From Halanaeroarchaeum sp. HSR-CO (GTDB lineage Archaea; Halobacteriota; Halobacteria; Halobacteriales; Halobacteriaceae), in contig NZ_CP087724.1 of NCBI RefSeq assembly GCF_024972755.1, positions 744,001-808,000 of the forward strand: DNA of 64,000 nucleotides, written 5' to 3'. The position numbers and the translations under genes were made by a program. Positions 29,054-45,935 of the stretch are shown piece after piece (position 1 is the first letter of the stretch; each line of letters starts with the position of its first letter). The notes beneath the pieces are model-generated. The model was not told the DNA's origin. It ran no database searches and saw only the letters and a program-made list of their open reading frames with translations.

Positions 29054-31927
29054 TCAATCGGGGCGTTGCATGTGATCTCTGGCCCGCATTTGAAGCTGTG
29101 ATATGGAAACCGGGTCAACTGATACCCGTTCCCCATCCGCAGTGAAATACAGGCTCGCGTCGACTGACCGGTCCGGATATGTAGACGTGAGAACGTGATA
29201 GTAGACGCTCAACTGGATCCTGTATTCGTCGACGGCCCGGCGGGTCCGATCGGTCTTGTAATCGATGATTTCCACGCGATCCAAAGTTACGTGGACGAGG
29301 TCGACGATCCCCGAAATCGTCACTCGCTGGTCGTCAACCGTTAGGGGTACCGTCGCTCGCTCTTCGACGAACAGTTCCCCGTCCAACGAGTCGATGAGAT
29401 CCCGGACTCGTCGCTCGTGCTCGTTTTCAGCTTCGCCGGCTTCGTCGAGGGCGTATTGCTCGGCGAACTCGTGGACTCGGGAACCAAAATTGACCCCACC
29501 GTCTCCATTGGACGTCTCGCCATCACCCGATTCGTCGAACACCGAATCGTCCATCAGGTCGTGGGGCGTCAGCCCGACGGGGCCGTCCGGGGGCGAGACG
29601 GTGAAGGGAAGTTGCGCCTGGGTCGTCCGCTCCCTGGTGACGTTGGCGACGTCGGGATTCCCCGCCTCCAGCGCGACGGGGAGTGACTCGAGGAAGCTAT
29701 TCGGGTCCTCGCCACCGGCGAAGACGAGATGCTGTTTCGCCCGGGTGATGGCGACGTAGAGGAGTCTCCGCTCTTCGTCGTACTCGTCCGGCAAACAGTG
29801 GCGGAGCACGTCGTATCGCCAGTTGTCGTAGACGTGGGGATACTGGCCGACCTCCGCGTACTCTTTGCGCTGCCTGAGTCCCACGGATTCCTCGTACCGG
29901 ATGACCTTCGAGTCGCGGGTCGAGGGCGGGAATCGACCCTCGTTCATGTTGGCCATGACGACGATGGGATATTCGAGTCCTTTCGCCGCGTGGATCGTCT
30001 GGACGGTGACGGAGTCGTCGCCGGCACTGGTGTGGACCTCGTGGGTCGCCCCGGTGTCGATTGCTCGGGTGATGAAGCGGATCAGATCCCCGCGGGTCAA
30101 CGTCGTCGCCTGGTGGACGGACTCGATGGTGTCCAGGATCACGTCCGCGTAATCCCCGTGGTACCCATACCGATCGAAGACACGGCGGGCGACCGACGCC
30201 ACCGTGTCCATCTCCGCCACCGTCGATCGGAATGCCGCCATGTCGGTCGGGTAGTCCCCCGTCGAGAGGATGTGGTCGATTTCGTCGAGCGTGTACCCGG
30301 CCGCTTCGAGGACGACCGCCCAGCCCCGATCGGCGTCCGATTCGAGAATCCGGAGCCAGGCGAGCAGCACTTTCGCCGGGTCGGTGCGGAATAGCTCGAC
30401 ACCGCCATCGTAGGCAATCGGGACGTCGTACTGGTCGGCCACCTGGAGCAATTCTCTCCCGAAATCCCTGGTCCGGGTCAGTACAGCGATGTCTCCGTAT
30501 TCCGGGGCCCGTGGATTTCCATCGTCGTCGGCGACCGGATAGTCGTCGTTTCCGACGATGGTCTGGATCTTCGAGAGGACTGACTCGTGTTCGTCCTCGT
30601 GGTGAATCGCTTCGATGTGGGTCTCGTCGAAGGGGGCGGTACTCGAGAGGGCGTCCGCATCACCGAGCTCCACATCTTCGACGTCTTCGGTGTCGGTTGC
30701 GGGGACCGTGAGCGCGTATTTCGAGAAGTCGAGGATGGATTGGGTGGAGCGGTAATTCTCGGACAACCTGAGTGGGGTGACCTCGGGGGTCTCGAATCCC
30801 ACTCTCTTTGCGTCGTCGTTCAACGCAGCGCTGAACCGTTGCAATCGCTTCTCGAACTGTCTGATGTTGTCGACGTCCGCGTACTGAAAGCTGTAGATGC
30901 TCTGTTTCCAGTCGCCGACGACGGCGAGGTTCTCGGTGCCGGCGAGCAACAACCCGAGTTTGAACTGGATTTCGCTGGTGTCCTGGAACTCGTCGACCAT
31001 GACGTATTCGAACTCGAGTCGCTCTCGGAGGTCGTGGTCTTCCAGGAGCAACACGTACGCCAGCACCTGCAGGAATCCGAAATTCAGGTAATTTCGGCCG
31101 AGCGTGAATTCCAGATATTCGAGATAGACGTCGTGGACGAACGCTTTCAGCGTCTCTCGATCCCCGTCGAACACGCGCCTTGCGACTGCCGAATCGATCT
31201 GCTTCGTCCCGCGCCCTCCGCGTAGTTCTCCCGTGTCGGGGGCGTCCGGGAGGTACGTCTTGTTCGTCCCGAAGCGTCCCAGCTTTTCGCGGAGTTCCGA
31301 TTGCTTCCGGCCCCCGTTCCGGGGCTGGTTGGCGGCTTCGAACTGGCGCTCGAACGCCTCGAACGCGCCCTCCAGGTGGGCTTCGGAGTCACGATACCAC
31401 CCCTCCCGAGTGGGGATGACGCCCTTCGAAGCGAGTTGTTTGACGAGATCGAGGAGATCGAGGTGGTCGTCGATTGCACGAAACTGATCCGCGTACTCCG
31501 GGTGGTCGTCCTGGAATCGCCCGACGAACTCCCGGAACAGTTCGTTCTCGACGAGTTCGTCTTCGATGAGTCGGGTCGACCCGGTGATGCGGTCGTCGAT
31601 GCCGAGATGCACCGGGGCGGCGTACCCGTGTTCGTCGAGTACGTGGTGTGCGTGTGAGTGGAAGGTCCGGATCGGGGCGTCGGCGAGCTCCTGAAGTCCG
31701 TACCCGGAGTGCTCGACGATCCGCTCTCGCATTTCGGTGGCCGCACTGTTGGTGAACGTGGCGAGGAGGACGTCGTCCGGTTCGACATCCTCTTGGTCGA
31801 TGATAGTGGCGTACCGCCGCGTCACCGCGAGCGTCTTCCCCGTGCCTGCCCCTGCATCGACGAGGTAGGTCCCTTCGGTCTCGTCGATGAGCCGCCGTTG
31901 CTGCTCGTTCGGTTCGAGGTCGCTCAT
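29054..31927 (-). CDS. UvrD/AddA-like superfamily 1 helicase with C-terminal nuclease
   Basis: 957 residues. N-terminal Walker A is DAGAGTGKT (Lys31) after the Q-motif NEQQRRLI. Further SF1A motifs in order: ATFTNSAATEMRER (Ia), MVDEFQDTSEIQ (II), VVGDWKQSIYSF (III), RLSENYRSTQSIL (IV), VQTIHAAKGLEYPIVV (V) and RRLLYVAITRAKQHLVF (VI). The last 130 residues hold a PD-(D/E)xK nuclease core: GIVDLVHVT then EIIDYKTD. This is the AddA architecture, a helicase-nuclease that processes DNA double-strand ends. It overlaps its upstream partner by 4 bp. Bacterial AddAB/RecBCD-like systems are uncommon in archaea, where HerA-NurA usually does this job. Confidence 0.9.
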   Translation of the reverse strand: MSDLEPNEQQRRLIDETEGTYLVDAGAGTGKTLAVTRRYATIIDQEDVEPDDVLLATFTNSAATEMRERIVEHSGYGLQELADAPIRTFHSHAHHVLDEHGYAAPVHLGIDDRITGSTRLIEDELVENELFREFVGRFQDDHPEYADQFRAIDDHLDLLDLVKQLASKGVIPTREGWYRDSEAHLEGAFEAFERQFEAANQPRNGGRKQSELREKLGRFGTNKTYLPDAPDTGELRGGRGTKQIDSAVARRVFDGDRETLKAFVHDVYLEYLEFTLGRNYLNFGFLQVLAYVLLLEDHDLRERLEFEYVMVDEFQDTSEIQFKLGLLLAGTENLAVVGDWKQSIYSFQYADVDNIRQFEKRLQRFSAALNDDAKRVGFETPEVTPLRLSENYRSTQSILDFSKYALTVPATDTEDVEDVELGDADALSSTAPFDETHIEAIHHEDEHESVLSKIQTIVGNDDYPVADDDGNPRAPEYGDIAVLTRTRDFGRELLQVADQYDVPIAYDGGVELFRTDPAKVLLAWLRILESDADRGWAVVLEAAGYTLDEIDHILSTGDYPTDMAAFRSTVAEMDTVASVARRVFDRYGYHGDYADVILDTIESVHQATTLTRGDLIRFITRAIDTGATHEVHTSAGDDSVTVQTIHAAKGLEYPIVVMANMNEGRFPPSTRDSKVIRYEESVGLRQRKEYAEVGQYPHVYDNWRYDVLRHCLPDEYDEERRLLYVAITRAKQHLVFAGGEDPNSFLESLPVALEAGNPDVANVTRERTTQAQLPFTVSPPDGPVGLTPHDLMDDSVFDESGDGETSNGDGGVNFGSRVHEFAEQYALDEAGEAENEHERRVRDLIDSLDGELFVEERATVPLTVDDQRVTISGIVDLVHVTLDRVEIIDYKTDRTRRAVDEYRIQLSVYYHVLTSTYPDRSVDASLYFTADGERVSVDPVSISQLQMRARDHMQRPD

Positions 31928-34506
31928 CGTTCACCCTCCAGTAGCAGGTCCCGATAATCGATCCGCCGGTAGTTGGGCTCTCCGCCCGGCCCCTCGATCG
32001 GGAATCGCCCTTCCCCGGATCGATACGCGTTGATCTCCTCGATTCTGTCCTGAACGAACTCCTCGACTGCATCCAGATCCTCTTCGAAAAACGCCCGCCT
32101 CCTGATCCCGTTCAGCGCTCGGATGGCCTGGTCTGCCCCCTTCTCCGTGTCGACCTCGTCATTCGTCGCCACATCGACCGCAGCGGTGAACGTCTCGGCG
32201 AAATCCGAGGACCGCAGCTCGTCTTTCTCCGTCGTATCAGGGAATTGGCGGTCGGACAGTATCTCGCGATACTGCTCGAACCCCAGGTCCGAGAACGTCT
32301 CGACGCAATCGTTGTAGCCATCGAGCAGGGCGTCGTACGCCGCTCGAGACCCGACGAATTCGTCGAAGGTCTGGGGGTAGTAGGTGACGGTCGTCATCGC
32401 GTCGTCCAGGGTTGTCTCTCCTGTGACGGCGTCGTCCAGGGTCTCGAGGAAGTGGAAGAAGGTGAACTGGATGCGCTCGTCCGGTTGCTGTGTTCGGAAG
32501 TACGCGAGATACAGCGCGGCCTGGAAGTTTGGGGTATCGGCCGGCGGATCCGTTGCTGCCCGCTTGACGACCTGGTAGGCCGACTTCTTCGACCCGCTCT
32601 TGTAATCGACGTTATGCGTGGGCGAGCGGACCAGGTCGATCTTCCCGTTCACGCCGATATCGAGCGCCTCGAACCAGCGCTCGGTCAGTGGCGAGTCGAT
32701 CGGCTTGTCGAAGTACTCCGCGAAGAAGTTCGACCCCCACCCGGAACTCGGGGTGAGGAAATCGTGATCCTCGGGGCCGTATTCGTCGAGGTATTCGACG
32801 ATCGTTTCGAGACCAATCTGGTACTTGCTCCGCCGCAGCGGCTCCTCTGTGTCGCTGAAAAAGGGCTGGACGGTGTCGACCATCACGTCGACGATTTCGT
32901 CGAGCTCGTCCGTTCCGACGCACTCGGGATGGTTCGCGTAGAACTCGGCGAAGTCGTGGAACAGATTCCCCTCCTGGAAATGGTCCTCGTCGGGGGTTTC
33001 GAGTAAGCGACTGAAGCAGTAGTCGCGGGGGCTGTTGACGTAGCTGTTCAGACTCGACTGGCTGATCGTCTCGATGGTCGTCGTGTCGGCGTCGACCGGC
33101 GACCGGTTGAACCCCGCTCCCTCCGTCCTCTCGATCCGCGAGTGAGCCAGCGAATCGAGGTCGCTGAAGCGCTCGAACTCCTCTTCGAGGAGTTCGCCGA
33201 GGTACAGCGGTGGCGTTACCGGCTGGCCGCCCGCGGTATCCTGCACGAGATAGTACTGCTCGCTGCCGCTCTGCACGAGGAGCTGGAACTGTCGGATGTA
33301 CCGCTCGTACTGGGCCTCGGCGTCGACCCAGGGTCGATTCGGTGCCGAATGCGTCCAGCCGTCGTCCATGCCGAGGAAGAACACGACGGGCCGATCGACG
33401 TATCCGGCCGACGTCGCGTCGGCGAGCAGAACTCCCTCGTTCTCCCGATCGATCGGAACGTCGTAGGTCTGGAGATAGTACGCCAGATCCTGGACGCGCT
33501 GCTCGGTGGGTTCCTCGTCCAGGAGACCGAGCTCGTCGAGTTCGGCTCGCAGTGCATCGAGCTCCTTGCCGGCCTGTCGTTCGAAGGAAGCGAGTGCCTC
33601 CTCGAAGCTTTCCGATGCCGCTCCGCCGGTGAAGGTGGTACACCAGTCCAGTTCCGGATGGTCGACTTCGCTGATCCGCTTTTGGTCGTGTTCGACCGGG
33701 ACGTCGATCCCCAGTTGGGTGCAGATCGGGGTGACGTCGCCGACCGTGGTGTCGGAGCCCCGGTGAGCTACGCGGAGCAGCCGGAGGAAGGTCCGGTGGT
33801 ATGGGTCGTCGGCGAACCCTGGGCCGCCGTAGAAGGGGATGTCGGCCGCTTCGAGGGCCGATTCCACGAGCGAGGAGTAGCGACTCGATCGGTCGAGGAC
33901 CACCCCCACGTCGTCGGCGTTCTCCGGGGTCACGGTGTCCAGGAGGGCGTCGACGATGTCGCTGGAGCCGTCGAAGACGTGGAATGGTGGCAGTGAGAAT
34001 GCCTCCTCGGTAAAGAGGGCGACGCGGTCGGCGTCCGGCGGGAGGATGGACCGCTCGAGTTGGGTTAGCTGGTCGTAGCCCACGACGGCGACCGACTGGT
34101 CTGCTGGGGTCTCGTACTCCTGCAGTTGCCCGGAGGTGGTCTGGAGGTCGCGGAGGACGTCGATGACCGCTTCGGTCGTCTCGTCGACGAAGGCCGGGTA
34201 CGCTTCGATCGCGGTGGCGCTCCCCTGGTGTTCCCAGCACTGGAGGACGTTCCCCACCGCGTAGGCGATGGCTTTCCAGGGGTGGTCCGTTCGGTCGACG
34301 AGTTCGAGGAACGCGGTGCGATCCTCGCTTGCTTCGCGTCGGCCCGTCGCGAGGCGGCGAGGTGTGGTGGCGAAGGTGCCGAAGTGTGGTGCGTCGAGGC
34401 GGCGGTTGAGGGCGTCTGCGAGTGGATTGTTGGGGACGATGACGAGGTCGTGGTCGGCGACGTCGTCGTAGATGGATTGGAGGGGGCGCAGGCGTTGGAT
34501 GGGCAC
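31924..34506 (-). CDS. AddB-like inactive helicase/PD-(D/E)xK nuclease
   Basis: 860 residues. The N-terminal part resembles AddB-type inactivated helicases: LVIVPNNPLADALNRRL sits where Walker A would be, without a GKT motif, and VVFFLGMDDGWTHSAPNRPW resembles the late helicase region. After SQSSLNSYVNSPRDYCFSRLL begins a nuclease domain with EGNLFHDFAEFY and a PD-(D/E)xK core GKIDLVRS...NVDYKSGSKK. No four-cysteine iron-sulfur staple is evident at the expected place, but the pair CFS upstream and scattered Cys do not exclude one. It is the first gene of the pair; ATGA overlap with the helicase shows joint translation. They likely form one heterodimer. Confidence 0.8.
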   Translation of the reverse strand: MPIQRLRPLQSIYDDVADHDLVIVPNNPLADALNRRLDAPHFGTFATTPRRLATGRREASEDRTAFLELVDRTDHPWKAIAYAVGNVLQCWEHQGSATAIEAYPAFVDETTEAVIDVLRDLQTTSGQLQEYETPADQSVAVVGYDQLTQLERSILPPDADRVALFTEEAFSLPPFHVFDGSSDIVDALLDTVTPENADDVGVVLDRSSRYSSLVESALEAADIPFYGGPGFADDPYHRTFLRLLRVAHRGSDTTVGDVTPICTQLGIDVPVEHDQKRISEVDHPELDWCTTFTGGAASESFEEALASFERQAGKELDALRAELDELGLLDEEPTEQRVQDLAYYLQTYDVPIDRENEGVLLADATSAGYVDRPVVFFLGMDDGWTHSAPNRPWVDAEAQYERYIRQFQLLVQSGSEQYYLVQDTAGGQPVTPPLYLGELLEEEFERFSDLDSLAHSRIERTEGAGFNRSPVDADTTTIETISQSSLNSYVNSPRDYCFSRLLETPDEDHFQEGNLFHDFAEFYANHPECVGTDELDEIVDVMVDTVQPFFSDTEEPLRRSKYQIGLETIVEYLDEYGPEDHDFLTPSSGWGSNFFAEYFDKPIDSPLTERWFEALDIGVNGKIDLVRSPTHNVDYKSGSKKSAYQVVKRAATDPPADTPNFQAALYLAYFRTQQPDERIQFTFFHFLETLDDAVTGETTLDDAMTTVTYYPQTFDEFVGSRAAYDALLDGYNDCVETFSDLGFEQYREILSDRQFPDTTEKDELRSSDFAETFTAAVDVATNDEVDTEKGADQAIRALNGIRRRAFFEEDLDAVEEFVQDRIEEINAYRSGEGRFPIEGPGGEPNYRRIDYRDLLLEGER

Positions 34507-34800: not shown

Positions 34801-35526
34801 ATGTATCAATACGAAGCCGTGAAGCAGGTGATGAAGGATAACGGTGGATACGCGACGCTAAAGCATCTGTACGAGCACGCGCCACACGTCGAAGGGAGCG
34901 AATGGGGGACGAAGACACCGAACGCCAGCATTCGTCGGATTGTCCAGCGACGTGACCCGTTCTTCAAGATTCGCCCCGGACTGTGGGGCCTGGAGGAATT
35001 CCGCGAGGAGTTGCCCGAGCACCTCAATACCGAATCGGTCTCTCCCGAGAAGGAACAGCAGTACGATCACACCTATTACCAGGGATTGCTAGCCGAGGTC
35101 GGGAATATGCGGGTTGCGGAGACCTGGATCCCGTCACAGGACAAGAACCAGGCGTTTCTTGATCAGACCCTGGCTGACGTCCGCTCGCTAGATAGCATTC
35201 CAGAGTTCGGGTACGAGGGGATGGTTCGTCGAGCCCGGACGGTCGACGTGGTCTGTTTCAACCACCGTCGGATGCCGGACAGCCTGCTGGAGGTCGAATT
35301 CTCCACGGACTTCCAGAACTCGCTTCACAAGTTTCTCGACCTGCAGGACTACTACGCGAACTTCGTCATCGTCGCCGACGAGACGCGGAAGGACCAGTTC
35401 GAAAAGCGACTGGGCCAGAGTGGATTCGAGGTCATTCGAGACCGTGTCGATTTCCTGAATTTCGATGAGGTGGTCAGGCTCCACATGGCGACGGACAATG
35501 CAGAAGGGATCGTCCCGCGGTTATAA
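34801..35526 (+). CDS. Winged-helix plus nuclease-like domain protein, unassigned
   Basis: 241 residues starting MYQYEAVKQVMKDNGG. The first 65 residues look like a HARE-HTH or related winged helix: AVKQVMKDNGGYATLKHLYE, then NASIRRIVQRRDPFFKIRPGLWGL. The C-terminal half has VDVVCFN, DSLLEVEFS and NFVIVADETRK, a strand pattern compatible with a PD-(D/E)xK-like fold (Asp ... Glu-x-Glu). HTH-nuclease fusions of this sort appear among restriction-like proteins and regulators. It is flanked by the AddAB-like pair and a palindrome array but has no methyltransferase partner here. Function not known; the gene itself is well supported by codon use and uninterrupted length. Confidence 0.6.
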   Translation: MYQYEAVKQVMKDNGGYATLKHLYEHAPHVEGSEWGTKTPNASIRRIVQRRDPFFKIRPGLWGLEEFREELPEHLNTESVSPEKEQQYDHTYYQGLLAEVGNMRVAETWIPSQDKNQAFLDQTLADVRSLDSIPEFGYEGMVRRARTVDVVCFNHRRMPDSLLEVEFSTDFQNSLHKFLDLQDYYANFVIVADETRKDQFEKRLGQSGFEVIRDRVDFLNFDEVVRLHMATDNAEGIVPRL

Positions 35527-35792
35527 GTGTCACTTAATACGTTACTTGACTCTAACTTGGAATTCGAAGGACACAGTATGAATTGCGTTGGTGTCTAGAG
35601 TGATACTGAGACGTCTAGCTTTTCGAGCTCTCTTGAGGTCTGAGTTGAGAAAGATTGAGGGAATATTGAGGCGAGTAAACGGTGACATCTGCGAGAACTT
35701 GCTGAAACTTACGCTCCCGATACATCAGGAAAAGACCCAGAAGCGACCCACTGAAGCATATGTTCGAAACCATATGGTTGAGTGTGGGGCAT
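35527..35792. other. Intergenic stretch before the palindrome chain
   Basis: About 265 bp, moderately AT-rich, with no gene. CGAAACCATATGGTTGAG near 35765-35782 includes the perfect 12-bp palindrome AACCATATGGTT. Confidence 0.4.
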
Positions 35793-36105
35793 CCGGCGAC
35801 CGAGTGGTCCGAAGGACCCGGTGGGTCGCCGGTTTTCCATCAGAGCAAGCTCTGATGACGTCTCGCTCACAGTGTTCGCGAGACCACCGAGCGCGAAGCG
35901 CTCGGGCGTCACGGCGTCGCCGTTCACCCTAATGAGACCCTCCTTCGGAGCGTCTCGCGGGCGACGAACCCCCGAAGGGGGTGAGGAAGCCTTTTCGTGT
36001 GCTCACGAAGCGAAGCTTCGTGGGATTCAGCAGTAGCTTCGCTCCTGCGCGACAGATTTTGCAGGCGGAGCGAGTGTTAGCGAGCGAAGCGAAGCAAAAG
36101 GTGCA
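35793..36105. repeat. Chain of consecutive palindromes, several with GAA loops
   Basis: Hairpins follow one another almost without gaps: 35793-35832 (CCGGCGACC with GGTCGCCGG, and nested GGTCC-GAA-GGACC); 35838-35857 (CATCAGAGC-AA-GCTCTGATG); 35860-35884 (GTCTCGC with GCGAGAC); 35887-35905 (CCGAGCGC-GAA-GCGCTCGG); 35934-35956 (GAGAC with GTCTC, nested CTCC-TTC-GGAG); 35969-35981 (CCCCC-GAA-GGGGG); 36004-36022 (CACGAAGC-GAA-GCTTCGTG); 36039-36073 (TCGCTCC with GGAGCGA). Stem sequences are unrelated, so they are not copies of one repeat. No ORF explains them. Confidence 0.85.
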
Positions 36106-36180
36106 TGGGTTCGGCCAGATTCGAACCAGAGGAAGACTCGCTTCGCTCGTCTTCCAGGGTTCGAATCCGCTCACCCATTC
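36106..36180 (-). repeat. tRNA-Val 3'-end-derived palindrome, unit 1
   Basis: 36106-36127 matches the tRNA-Val 3' end (TTCGGCCAGATTCGAAC on the plus strand). It is one arm of a hairpin: GATTCGAACC (36118-36127) pairs with GGTTCGAATC (36158-36167); a short AGA/AG internal loop follows; then GGAAGAC (36131-36137) pairs with GTCTTCC (36149-36155). TGGGT at the left end and ACCCA at the right end extend the match. It is not a complete tRNA. Confidence 0.85.
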
Positions 36181-36355
36181 TCACACGGTGCCGCGCCGAG
36201 CGCAGGCAGCGCTCGTCGCTCAGTACGTGAGAAGTGGGTTCGGCCAGATTCGAACCGAAGCCAGACGTGCTCGCTTCGCTGCGCGCGACTGGCAGGGCTC
36301 GAACTGCCCTCACACGTACGTCTGCCGCTTGCGGAATAGCTCGCGGCAGAAGTAG
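36181..36355 (-). repeat. tRNA-Val 3'-end-derived palindrome, unit 2, with spacer palindromes
   Basis: A second truncated tRNA-Val end at 36235-36256 pairs imperfectly with 36296-36306, and the inner stem GCCAG (36260-36264) pairs with CTGGC (36289-36293). Spacer palindromes flank it: TTCTCAC/GTGAGAA (36178-36184 with 36227-36233) on the left and TCTGCCGC/GCGGCAGA (36321-36328 with 36343-36350) on the right. The unit is followed directly by the functional tRNA-Val gene. Confidence 0.8.
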
Positions 36356-36429
36356 TGGGTTCGGCCAGATTCGAACTGGCGGCCTCGTCCTTGTAAGGGA
36401 CGCGTCATAACCAACTAGACCACGAACCC
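36356..36429 (-). tRNA. tRNA-Val, anticodon TAC
   Basis: Read on the minus strand it starts GGGTTCG and ends CGAACCC plus discriminator A. The anticodon stem CGTCC/GGACG encloses loop CTTACAA, giving anticodon TAC (codon GUA). The T arm is CCAGTTCGAATCTGG. CCA is not encoded. No intron is seen. Its transcription runs into the palindrome array. Confidence 0.95.
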
Positions 36430-36491
36430 ACACGCGAAACCAACCGGCGGCCGGCAAAAACGTTTGCCCTTCCGGCTCGAACCCCCACTCG

Positions 36492-37371: not shown

Positions 37372-38388
37372 ATGGCCCTCCCGGGTGACGAGGACGACCC
37401 GTTCGAGACCCAGCGGGAGCGAACCGACAATCCGATGGGTCGACTCTTCGTCGAGTACGGCCGGGACCACTGGGGGTACTTCGTCGTCGGGCTCCTCGCG
37501 AGCGTCGTGGCCAGGGTGCTCGATCTCATGCCACCGGTGCTACTCGGCGTCGCCATCGACGCGGTCTTCCGGGACGACGTCGCCTTCGGCAGTCGATTTC
37601 CACTCTCGTTGTTCCCGGCGAGCTGGTATCCGGCCACCCAGGAGGCACAGCTCTGGTTCACCATCGCCGCCATCGCGGCCTCCTTCTTCGGCGGTGCGGT
37701 CTTCCACTACGCGCGCAACTGGGGGTGGAACGCCTTCGCCCAGAACGTCCAGCACGGGGTACGCACCGACACTTACGACGAGATGCAGCGACTCAACATG
37801 GGCTTTTTCGCGGACAAGCAGACGGGAGAGATGATGTCTATCCTCTCGAACGACGTCAACCGCCTCGAGCGGTTCCTCAACGAGGGGATGAACGGGGCGT
37901 TTCGCCTCTCGGTGATGGTCGTCGCCATCGCGGTCCTGCTCTTCGCGATCAACTGGCAACTGGCGCTGGTCGCGCTCGTCCCGGTCCCGCTCATCTGGGC
38001 GTTCACGTACCTCTTCGTCGAGCGCATCCAGCCGAAGTACGCCGCCGTGCGCGCGGCCGTCGGCAGTCTCAACTCCAGACTCGAGAACAACCTCGGCGGC
38101 ATCGCGGTCATCAAGGCGTCGAACACCGAATCATACGAATCGGGGCGCGTCGACGACGCCTCGATGGAGTACTACGACACGAACTGGGACGCCATCAGGA
38201 CGCGGATCACCTTCTTCCCGGCGCTCCGGGTGCTGGCGGGGATCGGCTTCGTCATCACCTTCGCCGTCGGGGGCGTCTGGGTGTTCTCCGGGACCGCACC
38301 GGGGCCGTTTACCGGCACCCTCCAGACCGGTGCGTTCGTCACCTTCATCCTGTTGACCCAGCGGTTCATCTGGCCGATGGCCCAGTTT
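37372..38388 (+). pseudogene. ABC exporter, 5' part (membrane domain), split by the integrated element
   Basis: Codons 1-339 of an ABC half-exporter: an N-terminal DPFETQRERTDNPMGRLFVEY, then about six membrane helices (37470-38370) and the coupling-helix region ADKQTGEMMSILSNDVNRLE, typical of MsbA-like transmembrane domains. At codon 339 (IWPMAQF) the sequence switches to the element; the frame then adds 21 foreign residues (ESAWSAPIGFG...) and stops at 38454. It lacks the ATPase domain, which lies at 46000-46924. Joining at the 9-bp core restores MAQFGQIVNMYQR. The truncated product is probably non-functional unless the element excises. Confidence 0.93.
38379..38387 (+). other. attL core
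   Basis: GGCCCAGTT, shared with the right end at 46000-46008. It covers codons 337-339 of the interrupted gene. Bases on either side differ between the two ends, so the core is 9 bp. Confidence 0.85.
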
Positions 38389-38610
38389 GAATCGGCGTGG
38401 TCTGCACCAATCGGGTTCGGGGTCCCGTCGACGGGGACGCGGGCGGTCCCGTAGGTCCCGTAACGACCAAACCGACCGACAGCACCGCCCGACTCCACAG
38501 GCGGCCCCAGGACGCCCACCAAGGCGTTTCTCCCGAGACCCGGCCCCATCCCATCGGGTCCGTCCTCGGGCGTCTCTCGTGGCCTGTGGCGGGCCAGGAT
38601 TCGCCTGGAG
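38389..38610. other. Left end of element, no gene seen
   Basis: Contains the short direct repeat GGTCCCGTA (about 38442 and 38453) and GTCCCGTCGACGGGGAC, an imperfect palindrome. These could be integrase arm sites or part of a replication origin; nothing is proven. Confidence 0.35.
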
Positions 38611-40260
38611 GTGGTCGGCGTGAGTGTCGGGACGCCGAGCGTCGCCTTCTATACGGACTGGCAACGCGCGCGAGGCGAGGGCGTCAACTCGCACAAAACC
38701 CCCGGCGTGGGGTCCACCTCAGTCGACTTGTGGCCCGACACGGTCCCCGACGCCGAGCGGGCGACCCGAATCGTCCGCCGCGTCGCCGATACCCTCGACG
38801 ACCGTGGCGTATCCTACGGCGTCCGGTTCCCGGTCCTCGTCGAGAACGTCACGGGCGAACCGGCGTTCGAGCGCCGAGACGGCGGGATAGCGGCCACGGC
38901 GGCCTATCACCGGGTATTGCGGTCGGTCGAGGACCTCGTCGAGCGTGGTATCGTTCGGCGAGAGAGAATCCCCGATTACTCGGTCGTCGACGGCGTCGTC
39001 GAGAAGGGCGACCGCGAGAACGGTGACCTCTACATCCATCCCGAGTGGGTCCCTCCTACACTCCGGCCGTCGCACTTGAAGGTAAGTAGGCAAACCTCCT
39101 CGCGGCCAGACCCCGAGACCCCGAATCGCCCGACTGCGTCGGGGTGGCTTTCGGGACACGCGGGCGGTGGGACGGCGGCCGCCGAGGCTCGCTCGGTCCT
39201 TCGGGGTCGAGCGCAAATCATGCCGGGCGAACAGTCGGATGGCGTCAGGGCAAAACTCGGCCATGCACTGGCCGCTCACCGGCAGGGCGTCGACACTGAG
39301 GGTATGCGGCCGGACACGGTGTCCTCGACGGCCCGCGCCACTCGTCGACAGGCGACGTACTTCGGGGCGTGGGACGCCGCCCTCGACCGGCGTGTCGTGC
39401 CGGAGGACGTAGCCACACACGTCACGCTGACGCCCGACAGTCCGGGGTCGTATGGCGACCTCGTCGACGTGGCGGCCGCGGTGAACGACGACGTAGACGA
39501 CTTGCTATCGTGGCTCGGCCGGCACACGCCGGGGCCGGGTCGCCCCCTCACGCTCGTGATTCGTGAGACGACGAGACGGGGCCGCCTACACATTCACGTC
39601 GTCGTATTCGGCGTGGCCCCTCAACACCTGCGAAACGAGGGTCTCGGGGACTACTGGGCGGGGACAAAGGGTCACGGTTTCGTCAACTACACTCGACTCG
39701 TCCGCCGACCCACTCGTGAGGGTCGGCGTTGGCTCGCTCTCGACGACGACGCGGGGGTCGAATCGGGGACGCCGATACGCGGCTATCTCGCGGCGGCCCT
39801 CAACGACCGTCGTCGGGTGACGGAACTCAACGCCGAGGCCCTGCATGAGGTGGCGAAGGGGGCCGAGCGCGGCGGTCTCGACCGGCGGGGTCTCGTCCAA
39901 ACGGCGATTCTGTGGGCGACGGGCGTCGAGGCGTTCTCGGCGTCGCCCGCCCTCCTCGACACTGACCCGTCCACGCCGACGCCGTCCCGAGGACACGTCA
40001 ATCGACGCGGAAATAACGTCAATGCACGTTTCAGTGGCGTGTCTTCGTCGGGACTGACGGGAGTCGCCGGGGCGATTACGTCAATGCACGTCAGCGATTA
40101 CGTCGCTCGTCCGGGTCGAGACCGCCCGCCACCCGCCCCGCCTGACTCAGTCTTCGGTCACGTCGTCGAGAAGGTCACTGAGGTCGTCGTCCTCGGCCAA
40201 ATCGTCGATGAGTGTCTCTGTGTCTGGTGTCTCGGTCAACTCATCGACGAGGTCAGATAG
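38611..40260 (+). CDS. HUH-endonuclease replication initiator (Rep)
   Basis: 549 residues from GTG 38611 (GTG 38620 also possible). Motifs of rolling-circle Rep proteins: motif 1 HVTLTPDSPG from about residue 270, motif 2 GRLHIHVVVFG with the HUH histidines 327 and 329, and a motif-3 candidate tyrosine at 392 in GYLAAALND. Such proteins nick the double-strand origin and initiate plasmid replication. The N-terminal 240 residues have no recognised domain. The last 38 codons run antisense across the acidic-protein gene. The neighbouring cluster of ACGTCAATGCACGT repeats at its 3' end may belong to the replication region. Confidence 0.75.
   Translation: MVGVSVGTPSVAFYTDWQRARGEGVNSHKTPGVGSTSVDLWPDTVPDAERATRIVRRVADTLDDRGVSYGVRFPVLVENVTGEPAFERRDGGIAATAAYHRVLRSVEDLVERGIVRRERIPDYSVVDGVVEKGDRENGDLYIHPEWVPPTLRPSHLKVSRQTSSRPDPETPNRPTASGWLSGHAGGGTAAAEARSVLRGRAQIMPGEQSDGVRAKLGHALAAHRQGVDTEGMRPDTVSSTARATRRQATYFGAWDAALDRRVVPEDVATHVTLTPDSPGSYGDLVDVAAAVNDDVDDLLSWLGRHTPGPGRPLTLVIRETTRRGRLHIHVVVFGVAPQHLRNEGLGDYWAGTKGHGFVNYTRLVRRPTREGRRWLALDDDAGVESGTPIRGYLAAALNDRRRVTELNAEALHEVAKGAERGGLDRRGLVQTAILWATGVEAFSASPALLDTDPSTPTPSRGHVNRRGNNVNARFSGVSSSGLTGVAGAITSMHVSDYVARPGRDRPPPAPPDSVFGHVVEKVTEVVVLGQIVDECLCVWCLGQLIDEVR
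40015..40103. repeat. Short direct repeats within the rep 3' end
   Basis: ACGTCAATGCACGT occurs at 40016-40029 and 40078-40091, and ACGTCAAT again just upstream at about 39995. GCGATTACGTC occurs at about 40073 and 40094. The repeats lie inside coding sequence and could be Rep or regulator binding sites. Confidence 0.6.
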
Positions 40261-44495: not shown

Positions 44496-45935
44496 TCAGT
44501 CCTCCGCACCGTCCTCGTCCACCCGCTCTACGTCCTCGGTCGCCGTGAGCGGGGTCGCCTCGGCCGACGCCATCCCGTCCGAATCCTCGGCGTATTGTGC
44601 CGACTCGGTCGGGACGAGGTTGCCGTCCTCGTCGGGGCGGAACCCGACCAACCCCCCGCCGCCGGACTCGTCGTCGAGCATGGGGGCGAACGCGTCGAGG
44701 AGCCCTTCGAGCCGGCCGAGGTCCTCGGCGGTGAGTCCCGGCACGTCCACCGCGTCGGTCCACGGCGTCGCCCCTCTCGCAGTCTCGCACTCGGGGCAGG
44801 TGTCCTCACCGGGCGAGAGGACGCGCAGGCAGTCGTCGCACACGGTGTCCCACGGGTCGACCTCGTCGCCATTCTCGCGGACGCCGGGGACGCCAAAGGC
44901 GTTGTGCGCGGCGGCGTTGTGGTCGTCGCCGGTGAGGTGAGAGTAGGTCTCCTCCATCACGTCCGAGGCGGGGGCGTGGCCCAACCAGAATTTAATATCC
45001 GCGGTGGTAATGTCGGGGTGCTTCAGGCACGTATTGACGAAGTTGTGCCTCATCATGTGGGGGTGGGCCGGTTTCGAGACGGTCACAACGTCGACTCGCT
45101 CGGCGGTTTTCTTCTTGAGTTGCGCCATCGTGTAGCGAATCGTCTCTTTCGTGACGGGCGTCGTCGGGTCCATCTTCGACGCCCCCGGCTTCGCCGTAAT
45201 CAGGTAGTCCTCGGGGTCGCCGGTGGGGTGAAAGTCGAGCCAGTCGCGGACGGCCCGATACGCCTGCGAGAGCGGCCGGGGTTCGCCGGGTCGGTCGATG
45301 TTCTTGAGGCCGTCGGCGTCGGTGTTGAACGACCACACGCCCGCGTCGAGGTCCACGTCTTTCACCCGGAGCGTCCGCAGGGCGGTGTTCCGCATCCCGG
45401 CGTAGAGGAGGAGGTGGAGAATCGCGGCGTCTCGCGGGTGGTCGACGACCGTTCGCAGGGCGGCCCGTTCCTCGGGCGTAAGCATATCGCCCTCGGTCCA
45501 CGGCGTCGTTTTCGACCGCTCGTGGACGGTAATATCGGCGGGGTCGACGCCGAGGTCGGCGTGGTAGCGATAGAACTTCTTGAGGGCGTTTTCAATATCG
45601 GCCACGCGGGAGAGGCCGGGGCCGTCCTTCGCTTTCACCCGGCCGGTGGTCCATGCGTTGACGGTATCGGCGTCGGTCTCGTCGCCGGTGAGGTGGAGGT
45701 CCTTCGCCGCCACCGAGAGGCGTTCGGCCCATGCGTCGAGCGTCCCCCGCGCTTTGTGGCCGTCTTTCCGGTCGTCGTAGAGGTCTCTCGGCAGGCTCTC
45801 GGTGGCGTCCTCGGCGTCGTAGGCGGCGCACAACTCGCGGATGGCGTCGCCGTCGTCGGGGTGAATCTCGCCGTCCTCGACGCGGCGGTCGAGACTGTCG
45901 AGCGTGTCCTGAAACTGGGTTTGGTGTTGGCTCAT
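44496..45935 (-). CDS. Tyrosine recombinase (element integrase)
   Basis: 479 residues from the ATG at 45935; GTG or ATG codons further up are possible but lie close to the core. The N-terminal SAM-like core-binding region is at about 50-140. The catalytic domain holds Arg182 (GMRNTALRTL), His293-x-x-Arg296 (HPHMMRH), His320 (FWLGH) and nucleophile Tyr331 (ETYSHL). A Cys4 zinc-ribbon-like segment (C366, C369, C380, C383) and an acidic tail follow, giving extra length over typical 300-400-residue integrases. Adjacent to attR, it probably catalyses recombination at GGCCCAGTT. Confidence 0.9.
   Translation of the reverse strand: MSQHQTQFQDTLDSLDRRVEDGEIHPDDGDAIRELCAAYDAEDATESLPRDLYDDRKDGHKARGTLDAWAERLSVAAKDLHLTGDETDADTVNAWTTGRVKAKDGPGLSRVADIENALKKFYRYHADLGVDPADITVHERSKTTPWTEGDMLTPEERAALRTVVDHPRDAAILHLLLYAGMRNTALRTLRVKDVDLDAGVWSFNTDADGLKNIDRPGEPRPLSQAYRAVRDWLDFHPTGDPEDYLITAKPGASKMDPTTPVTKETIRYTMAQLKKKTAERVDVVTVSKPAHPHMMRHNFVNTCLKHPDITTADIKFWLGHAPASDVMEETYSHLTGDDHNAAAHNAFGVPGVRENGDEVDPWDTVCDDCLRVLSPGEDTCPECETARGATPWTDAVDVPGLTAEDLGRLEGLLDAFAPMLDDESGGGGLVGFRPDEDGNLVPTESAQYAEDSDGMASAEATPLTATEDVERVDEDGAED

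Follow-up and report, generated by a model that had tools for sequence, protein, structure and literature searches.

The window, a stretch of 64,000 nucleotides from the haloarchaeon Halanaeroarchaeum sp. HSR-CO, contains on its minus strand a tRNA-Val gene (anticodon TAC; 36355-36429) that was identified by ARAGORN, matches the Rfam model RF00005 with 69.5 bits, and is the anchor of the present analysis. The region 3' of this gene is made of two parts, a tRNA-proximal array of cassettes (36106-36355) and a distal mosaic of palindromes (35789-36105). Further away, on the array side of the tRNA, two overlapping minus-strand genes (29054-34506) encode a UvrD-type helicase with a PD-(D/E)XK domain and a PD-(D/E)XK protein. 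This pair is AddAB-like, and its helicase also matches GajB models; a genome of the same genus has a different region behind its tRNA-Val. The product of the adjoining gene (34801-35526) shows a weak HARE-HTH domain and a weak similarity to type II restriction enzymes. Beyond the tRNA, at 37372-40260, an ABC transporter gene with the membrane domain only is directly followed by a gene weakly similar to HUH replication proteins, likely an insertion that cut the transporter gene. Finally, a gene of the tyrosine-integrase family (44934-45443), on the 5' side of tRNA-Val and about 8.5 kb off, probably belongs to another integrated element.

Units and palindromic modules behind tRNA-Val

The array consists of two units on the minus strand. 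Unit 1 (121 nt, 36235-36355) lies directly 3' of the tRNA and folds to -59.6 kcal/mol. Following the tRNA strand, it has a leader hairpin (hp1, 36317-36354), a mirrored T-loop, AGTTCGAG (36298-36305), which is complementary to the T-loop of the unit's copy (see the family-wide test below), a core hairpin of subfamily B, CCTGCCAGTCG...CGTCTGGCTTCG (36256-36297), and a 21-nt copy of the tRNA-Val 3' end, GTTCGAATCTGGCCGAACCCA (36235-36255). Unit 2 (129 nt, 36106-36234) folds to -68.9 kcal/mol and has the same anatomy: a leader hairpin (hp1, 36178-36233), a mirrored T-loop, GGATTCGAACC (36158-36168), a core hairpin, GAAGACGAGCGAAGCGAGTCTTC (36127-36157), with a GAA triloop and tandem GA/GA, and a second copy of 21 nt (36106-36126). 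Both copies are identical to the last 21 nt of the tRNA, from the T-loop to the 3' end (21/21 nt; 21/22 for the terminal copy of each unit). The core types of these two units differ from the commonest core of the family described below.

The distal part is not derived from tRNA, and its sub-blocks match many sites in genomes of the same family, which makes it a mosaic of dispersed haloarchaeal palindromic modules. Among them is an unstranded palindromic module of 46 bp, CCGGCGACC...GGTCGCCGG (35789-35834, also L163-L173), with dozens of dispersed copies in same-family genomes, mostly away from tRNAs.

The palindromes had first been noticed in a sequence-only reading, and we recovered its hairpins, four of them with a GAA loop and one with TTC, including the two built on the copies of the tRNA-Val 3' end (36106-36126 and 36235-36255). 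That reading also proposed a comparison with shuffled sequence, which the chain passes: on the minus strand, 35790-36430 has a folding energy of -320.4 kcal/mol, whereas dinucleotide shuffles average -257.6 +/- 7.3 and none of the 20 does as well (z = -8.66). When 21,062 segments of 280 nt, covering 430 kb of the same genome, were ranked for hairpin chaining, the chain came second with a score of 31 (99.9th percentile: 26.9); the genome was sampled in stretches around its tRNAs. The first-ranked segment of this sample lies behind a different tRNA gene, and hairpin density is elevated over the 400 bp that follow tRNAs on their 3' side. The shuffles and the ranking thus rule out a chance origin of the chain.

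A tRNA-anchored family in haloarchaea

We scanned behind all 43 tRNAs of the genome for each tRNA's own 3' end, using the ends of the other tRNAs as a control. Copies of the own 3' end were found downstream of 22 of the 43 tRNAs, and mismatched ends in only 4 of 968 combinations. The sequence-only reading had taken the chain for a series of independent palindromes and not a copied repeat family, which turned out to be wrong for both halves: the proximal half belongs to a repeat family present at half of the tRNAs of this genome, and the modules that compose the distal half also occur at other sites. Hence, neither a local oddity nor a set of independent palindromes accounts for the region.

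The 43 units listed in this genome follow one order on the tRNA strand: a leader hairpin that starts within a T-rich stretch after the tRNA, a mirrored T-loop (for example GGATTTGAA), a core hairpin, and a copy in which GTTCRAATC is joined to the remaining 3' part of the tRNA, CCA excluded. The core hairpin comes in several types, the commonest being TCAGGGA-stem-GACCGTGG, and some copies are degenerate. Units are about 61-274 nt long, nearly all below 190 nt, which leaves no room for ordinary genes. The family is seen most clearly in an array (L015, 4975-5750; G000:C1:1877974) where a single tRNA is followed by six tandem copies of its own 3' end, with several units identical over 111 nt. The strongest palindrome chain that we found (L009, 4341-4900, behind the tRNA at G000:C1:357520) contains two copies of a longer module, TTTTTTACTTG...AAAAACCTGGAC...AAAAACGTCC, which is also present behind other arrays.

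The family extends to other haloarchaea. We searched for its commonest core with the pattern TGAATCAGGGA N4-34 GACCGTGGTTCRAATC, a count that leaves other core subfamilies aside. The pattern has matches in 86 of 295 Halobacteriales genomes, spread over 48 of 88 genera, with 0 matches for a reversed-pattern control, and was absent from about 310 genomes of the same phylum outside Halobacteriales. Among GTDB genomes, it matches at least 120 stretches, all with haloarchaeal record titles except one MAG titled only Euryarchaeota. Of 130 cores, 117 share the strand of a tRNA and lie within 300 bp beyond its 3' end, and the tRNAs bearing them span 15 isotypes. A search independent of the core identified own-3'-end copies at 6 of 20 tRNAs in genome G034, whose units have an AGGGA...GACCG core in common, at 3 of 20 in G027 and 2 of 20 in G114, and at 0 of 20 in one genome that belongs to the phylum but not to the order. 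We also searched mobile elements. The commonest core has no match in the 2.9 million viral contigs of IMG/VR, and a related unit used as query has none among phage records and a single, weak match among plasmids, in a Natronorubrum megaplasmid. Carriage by known viruses or plasmids was rejected on these grounds.

The arms of the units fit the adjacent tRNA. The ten bases that follow TTCRAATC are 96% identical to those of the own tRNA, compared with 46% when tRNAs are permuted, and the table of mirrored T-loops against tRNA T-loop variants is nearly diagonal. Units with TTCAAAT carry ATTTGA in 130 of 166 cases; those with TTCGAAT carry ATTCGA in 9 of 15 and ATTTGA in none of the 15. Even rare T-loops have their own complements (TTCAATT, 2/2; TTCAAGT, 2/2). 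Beyond the T-loop, the complement is only partial.

The cores are maintained as paired structures. In 30 distinct cores of 40 nt, all five apical pairs show two-sided changes, with 24 two-sided change cells against 5.0 in shuffles, and this signal is lost when the partners are slid. The sequence-only reading held that relatives keeping the sequence without the pairing would leave chance or decay as the explanation; relatives in fact pair through compensatory changes or have no unit. The units are also asymmetric. Computed with RNA parameters, the tRNA strand is the more stable one in 126 of the 135 units, and with DNA parameters in 119 of 135. Two-by-two internal loops on this strand are tandem GA/GA, in a Py-GA-Pu context, in 130 of 695 cases, against 23 for TC/TC and a background of 109 in 7,175. 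The asymmetry of both folding and internal loops suggests that the units work as a single strand. As for its nature, G.T and A.C occur at unit stem positions in a ratio of 26:12, compared with 48:0 in tRNA acceptor stems (p=2e-5), small numbers set against a strict control; this leans away from RNA and towards DNA. A first count gave a weak enrichment of GNA triloops on long stems, which was not used as proof of DNA. The search of the units against Rfam returned the tRNA as sole match and no other curated model, which rules out a known RNA family.

Taken together, these results support the suggestion of a new class of palindromic extragenic element for the tRNA-proximal half, given its covariation, class-wide distribution, and strict association with tRNAs. 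No description of tRNA-mirroring cassettes was found in the open literature searched, to which our claim of novelty is limited. Within this limit, the family apparently represents hitherto undescribed, class-wide DNA cassettes of about 100 bases in salt-loving archaea.

Turnover of the units and possible origins

The number of units changes between species and between paralogous tRNAs. In the same-genus genome, the syntenic tRNA-Val, with the adjoining DUF192 gene, has no unit where there are two here, and other orthologous tRNAs of this pair of genomes have 6 vs 1, 3 vs 2, and 0 vs 1 copies. Several of these gains and losses have alignable upstream flanks; the downstream flanks have diverged, and the same-genus genome offers no clean pair of empty and filled sites with both flanks alignable. 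Within the source genome (G000), two tRNA genes have identical 3' ends over 22 nt, one with two units and the other with none. In L142, the leader hairpin that in relatives comes directly after the tRNA is separated from tRNA-Val by a different unit. In one array, a copy matches a different tRNA-Leu at 22 of 22 positions and its own tRNA at 21, and may be a cassette from elsewhere or the product of a single mutation. Finally, in Halorubrum, variation is low in the copy (0.02), the core (0.02), and the tRNA (0.012), and higher in the leader (0.12), the mirrored arm (0.22), and the flank (0.18). Such conservation of copy and core next to a drifting mirrored arm could reflect host function or gene conversion instead of mobility.

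We give an even chance to the reading of 36106-36355 as a two-unit array of gene-less, non-autonomous haloarchaeal cassettes that insert at the T-loop and 3' end of tRNAs. The copy of 21-22 nt would then be an att-type duplication arising from site-specific insertion, with a crossover in the universal T-loop (GTTCRAAT), and each insertion would keep the tRNA whole and add one unit. A haloarchaeal provirus is reported to leave a tRNA duplication of the same length, 22 nt (PMC3119063). Yet, simple integration does not account for one core bearing arms fitted to 15 tRNA isotypes. By folding the tRNA-sense single strand, the mirrored arm might rebuild the tRNA target in double-stranded form, and a putative recombinase acting in trans might use the folded strand, by analogy with the use of attC by integron integrases. 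A bolder and rather doubtful form of this idea is that of a haloarchaeal, tRNA-anchored analogue of integrons, in which cassettes would act as tRNA-sense single-stranded DNA, their target would be rebuilt by pairing of the mirrored arm with the copy, and the putative trans-acting recombinase would insert them at many tRNA T-loops, beside the tRNA, building arrays. Against the cassette reading, no recombinase gene lies near the arrays; all PF00589 integrase-family matches of the genome are more than 5 kb from any array. This also rules out the simple case of a provirus att site beside an integrase.

Strand asymmetry is also compatible with RNA, which counts against the reading as DNA cassettes. 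The units could be transcribed with the tRNA as structured trailers that stop read-through, signal processing, or act as small RNAs, with mirrored arms that fold the spare 3' end away from the real tRNA. This is possible though on balance unlikely. It would fit the constant position of the units on the tRNA strand and 3' side, the higher stability of that strand with RNA parameters, the covariation of the stems, the conservation of core and copy, and the T-rich leader. However, half of the tRNAs lack units, and presence and absence at both paralogous and orthologous tRNAs argue against a required trailer. Moreover, the G.T:A.C ratio is unlike that of RNA stems, Rfam provides no match, and a terminator needs no exact copy of the tRNA.

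We find it harder to believe that the units are passive scars, that is, att duplications of decayed proviruses or plasmids at tRNA 3' ends that were made palindromic by haloarchaeal replication errors. The provirus duplication cited above, the abundance of palindromes with GNA or GAA loops in these genomes, and the occurrence of degenerate copies speak for such an origin. Nevertheless, scars explain neither a core common to 15 isotypes and 48 genera nor mirrored T-loops that track rare variants, the core and copy show no decay, and the searches of viral contigs and phages gave no match. Least probable of all is growth without an insertion enzyme, by polymerase template switching at the near-palindromic T-loop that would write the tRNA end and T-run in alternating forward and inverted forms and extend arrays outward: it would agree with the repeating order of the arrays, in which a tRNA end is followed by a T-run and tRNA end in inverted form and then by a forward tRNA end, with near-identical tandem units such as those of the six-copy array, and with arms that fit the local tRNA, but it leaves unexplained both a core conserved across tRNAs and genera and the greater conservation of core and copy relative to the mirrored arm.

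The family is conserved, spans a whole archaeal class, sits at as many as half of the tRNA genes, and apparently has no name so far. It could show how small DNA elements spread at essential genes in a novel and harmless way, or point to archaeal recombination that acts on folded single strands, or to a new layer of RNA linked to tRNAs. The cassettes explain the repeat-rich 3' flanks of tRNAs in haloarchaea and may affect the calling of att sites of haloarchaeal proviruses.

Comparison with known systems

The cassettes differ from other short palindromes and tRNA-targeting elements. REP/BIME elements (RAYT) and the IS605-derived PATEs of Haloquadratum are also short, mobile, gene-less palindromes, but they neither target tRNA 3' ends nor have arms that copy a target, and PATEs lack a target duplication. 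Their dispersed intergenic positions are unlike those of the cassettes, whose cores sit at tRNAs, and are shared by the distal chain (35789-36105). Casposons insert site-specifically at tRNA 3' ends, and CRISPR arrays grow beside a leader with target duplication, yet the haloarchaeal cassettes have neither terminal repeats nor spacers. Casposase duplications measure 14-15 bp, and the example from M. mazei takes in no more of the tRNA than its final 4 bp, whereas those of the cassettes are of 21-22 bp and start from the T-loop.

The att sites of tyrosine integrases at tRNAs, as in haloarchaeal proviruses (reviewed in PMC8371274), resemble the cassettes in the duplication of 22 nt of the tRNA 3' end that keeps the tRNA whole, and the copies of 21-22 nt next to restored tRNAs agree with att remnants. 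In contrast, the cassettes are gene-less, tandem units of about 100 nt, found at half of all tRNAs, with a mirrored arm and a core common across isotypes; no PF00589 match lies within 5 kb of them, and the core is absent from viral contigs and phages.

There are also parallels with integron attC sites and with CALINs, cassette arrays that lack an integrase, described in archaeal MAGs (PMC9668308): both systems have arrays of imperfect palindromes, a strand bias, a high turnover, and one strand that folds into hairpins, which in the haloarchaeal units would resemble a recombination site. One-strand folding and stem pairing are observed in the units, and a role of the fold in recombination is putative. 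Archaeal integrons known so far contain both genes and an integron integrase, and the text describing them (PMC9668308) makes no mention of Halobacteria. The haloarchaeal cassettes, unlike integrons, hold no genes between their sites, and their site follows the adjacent tRNA.
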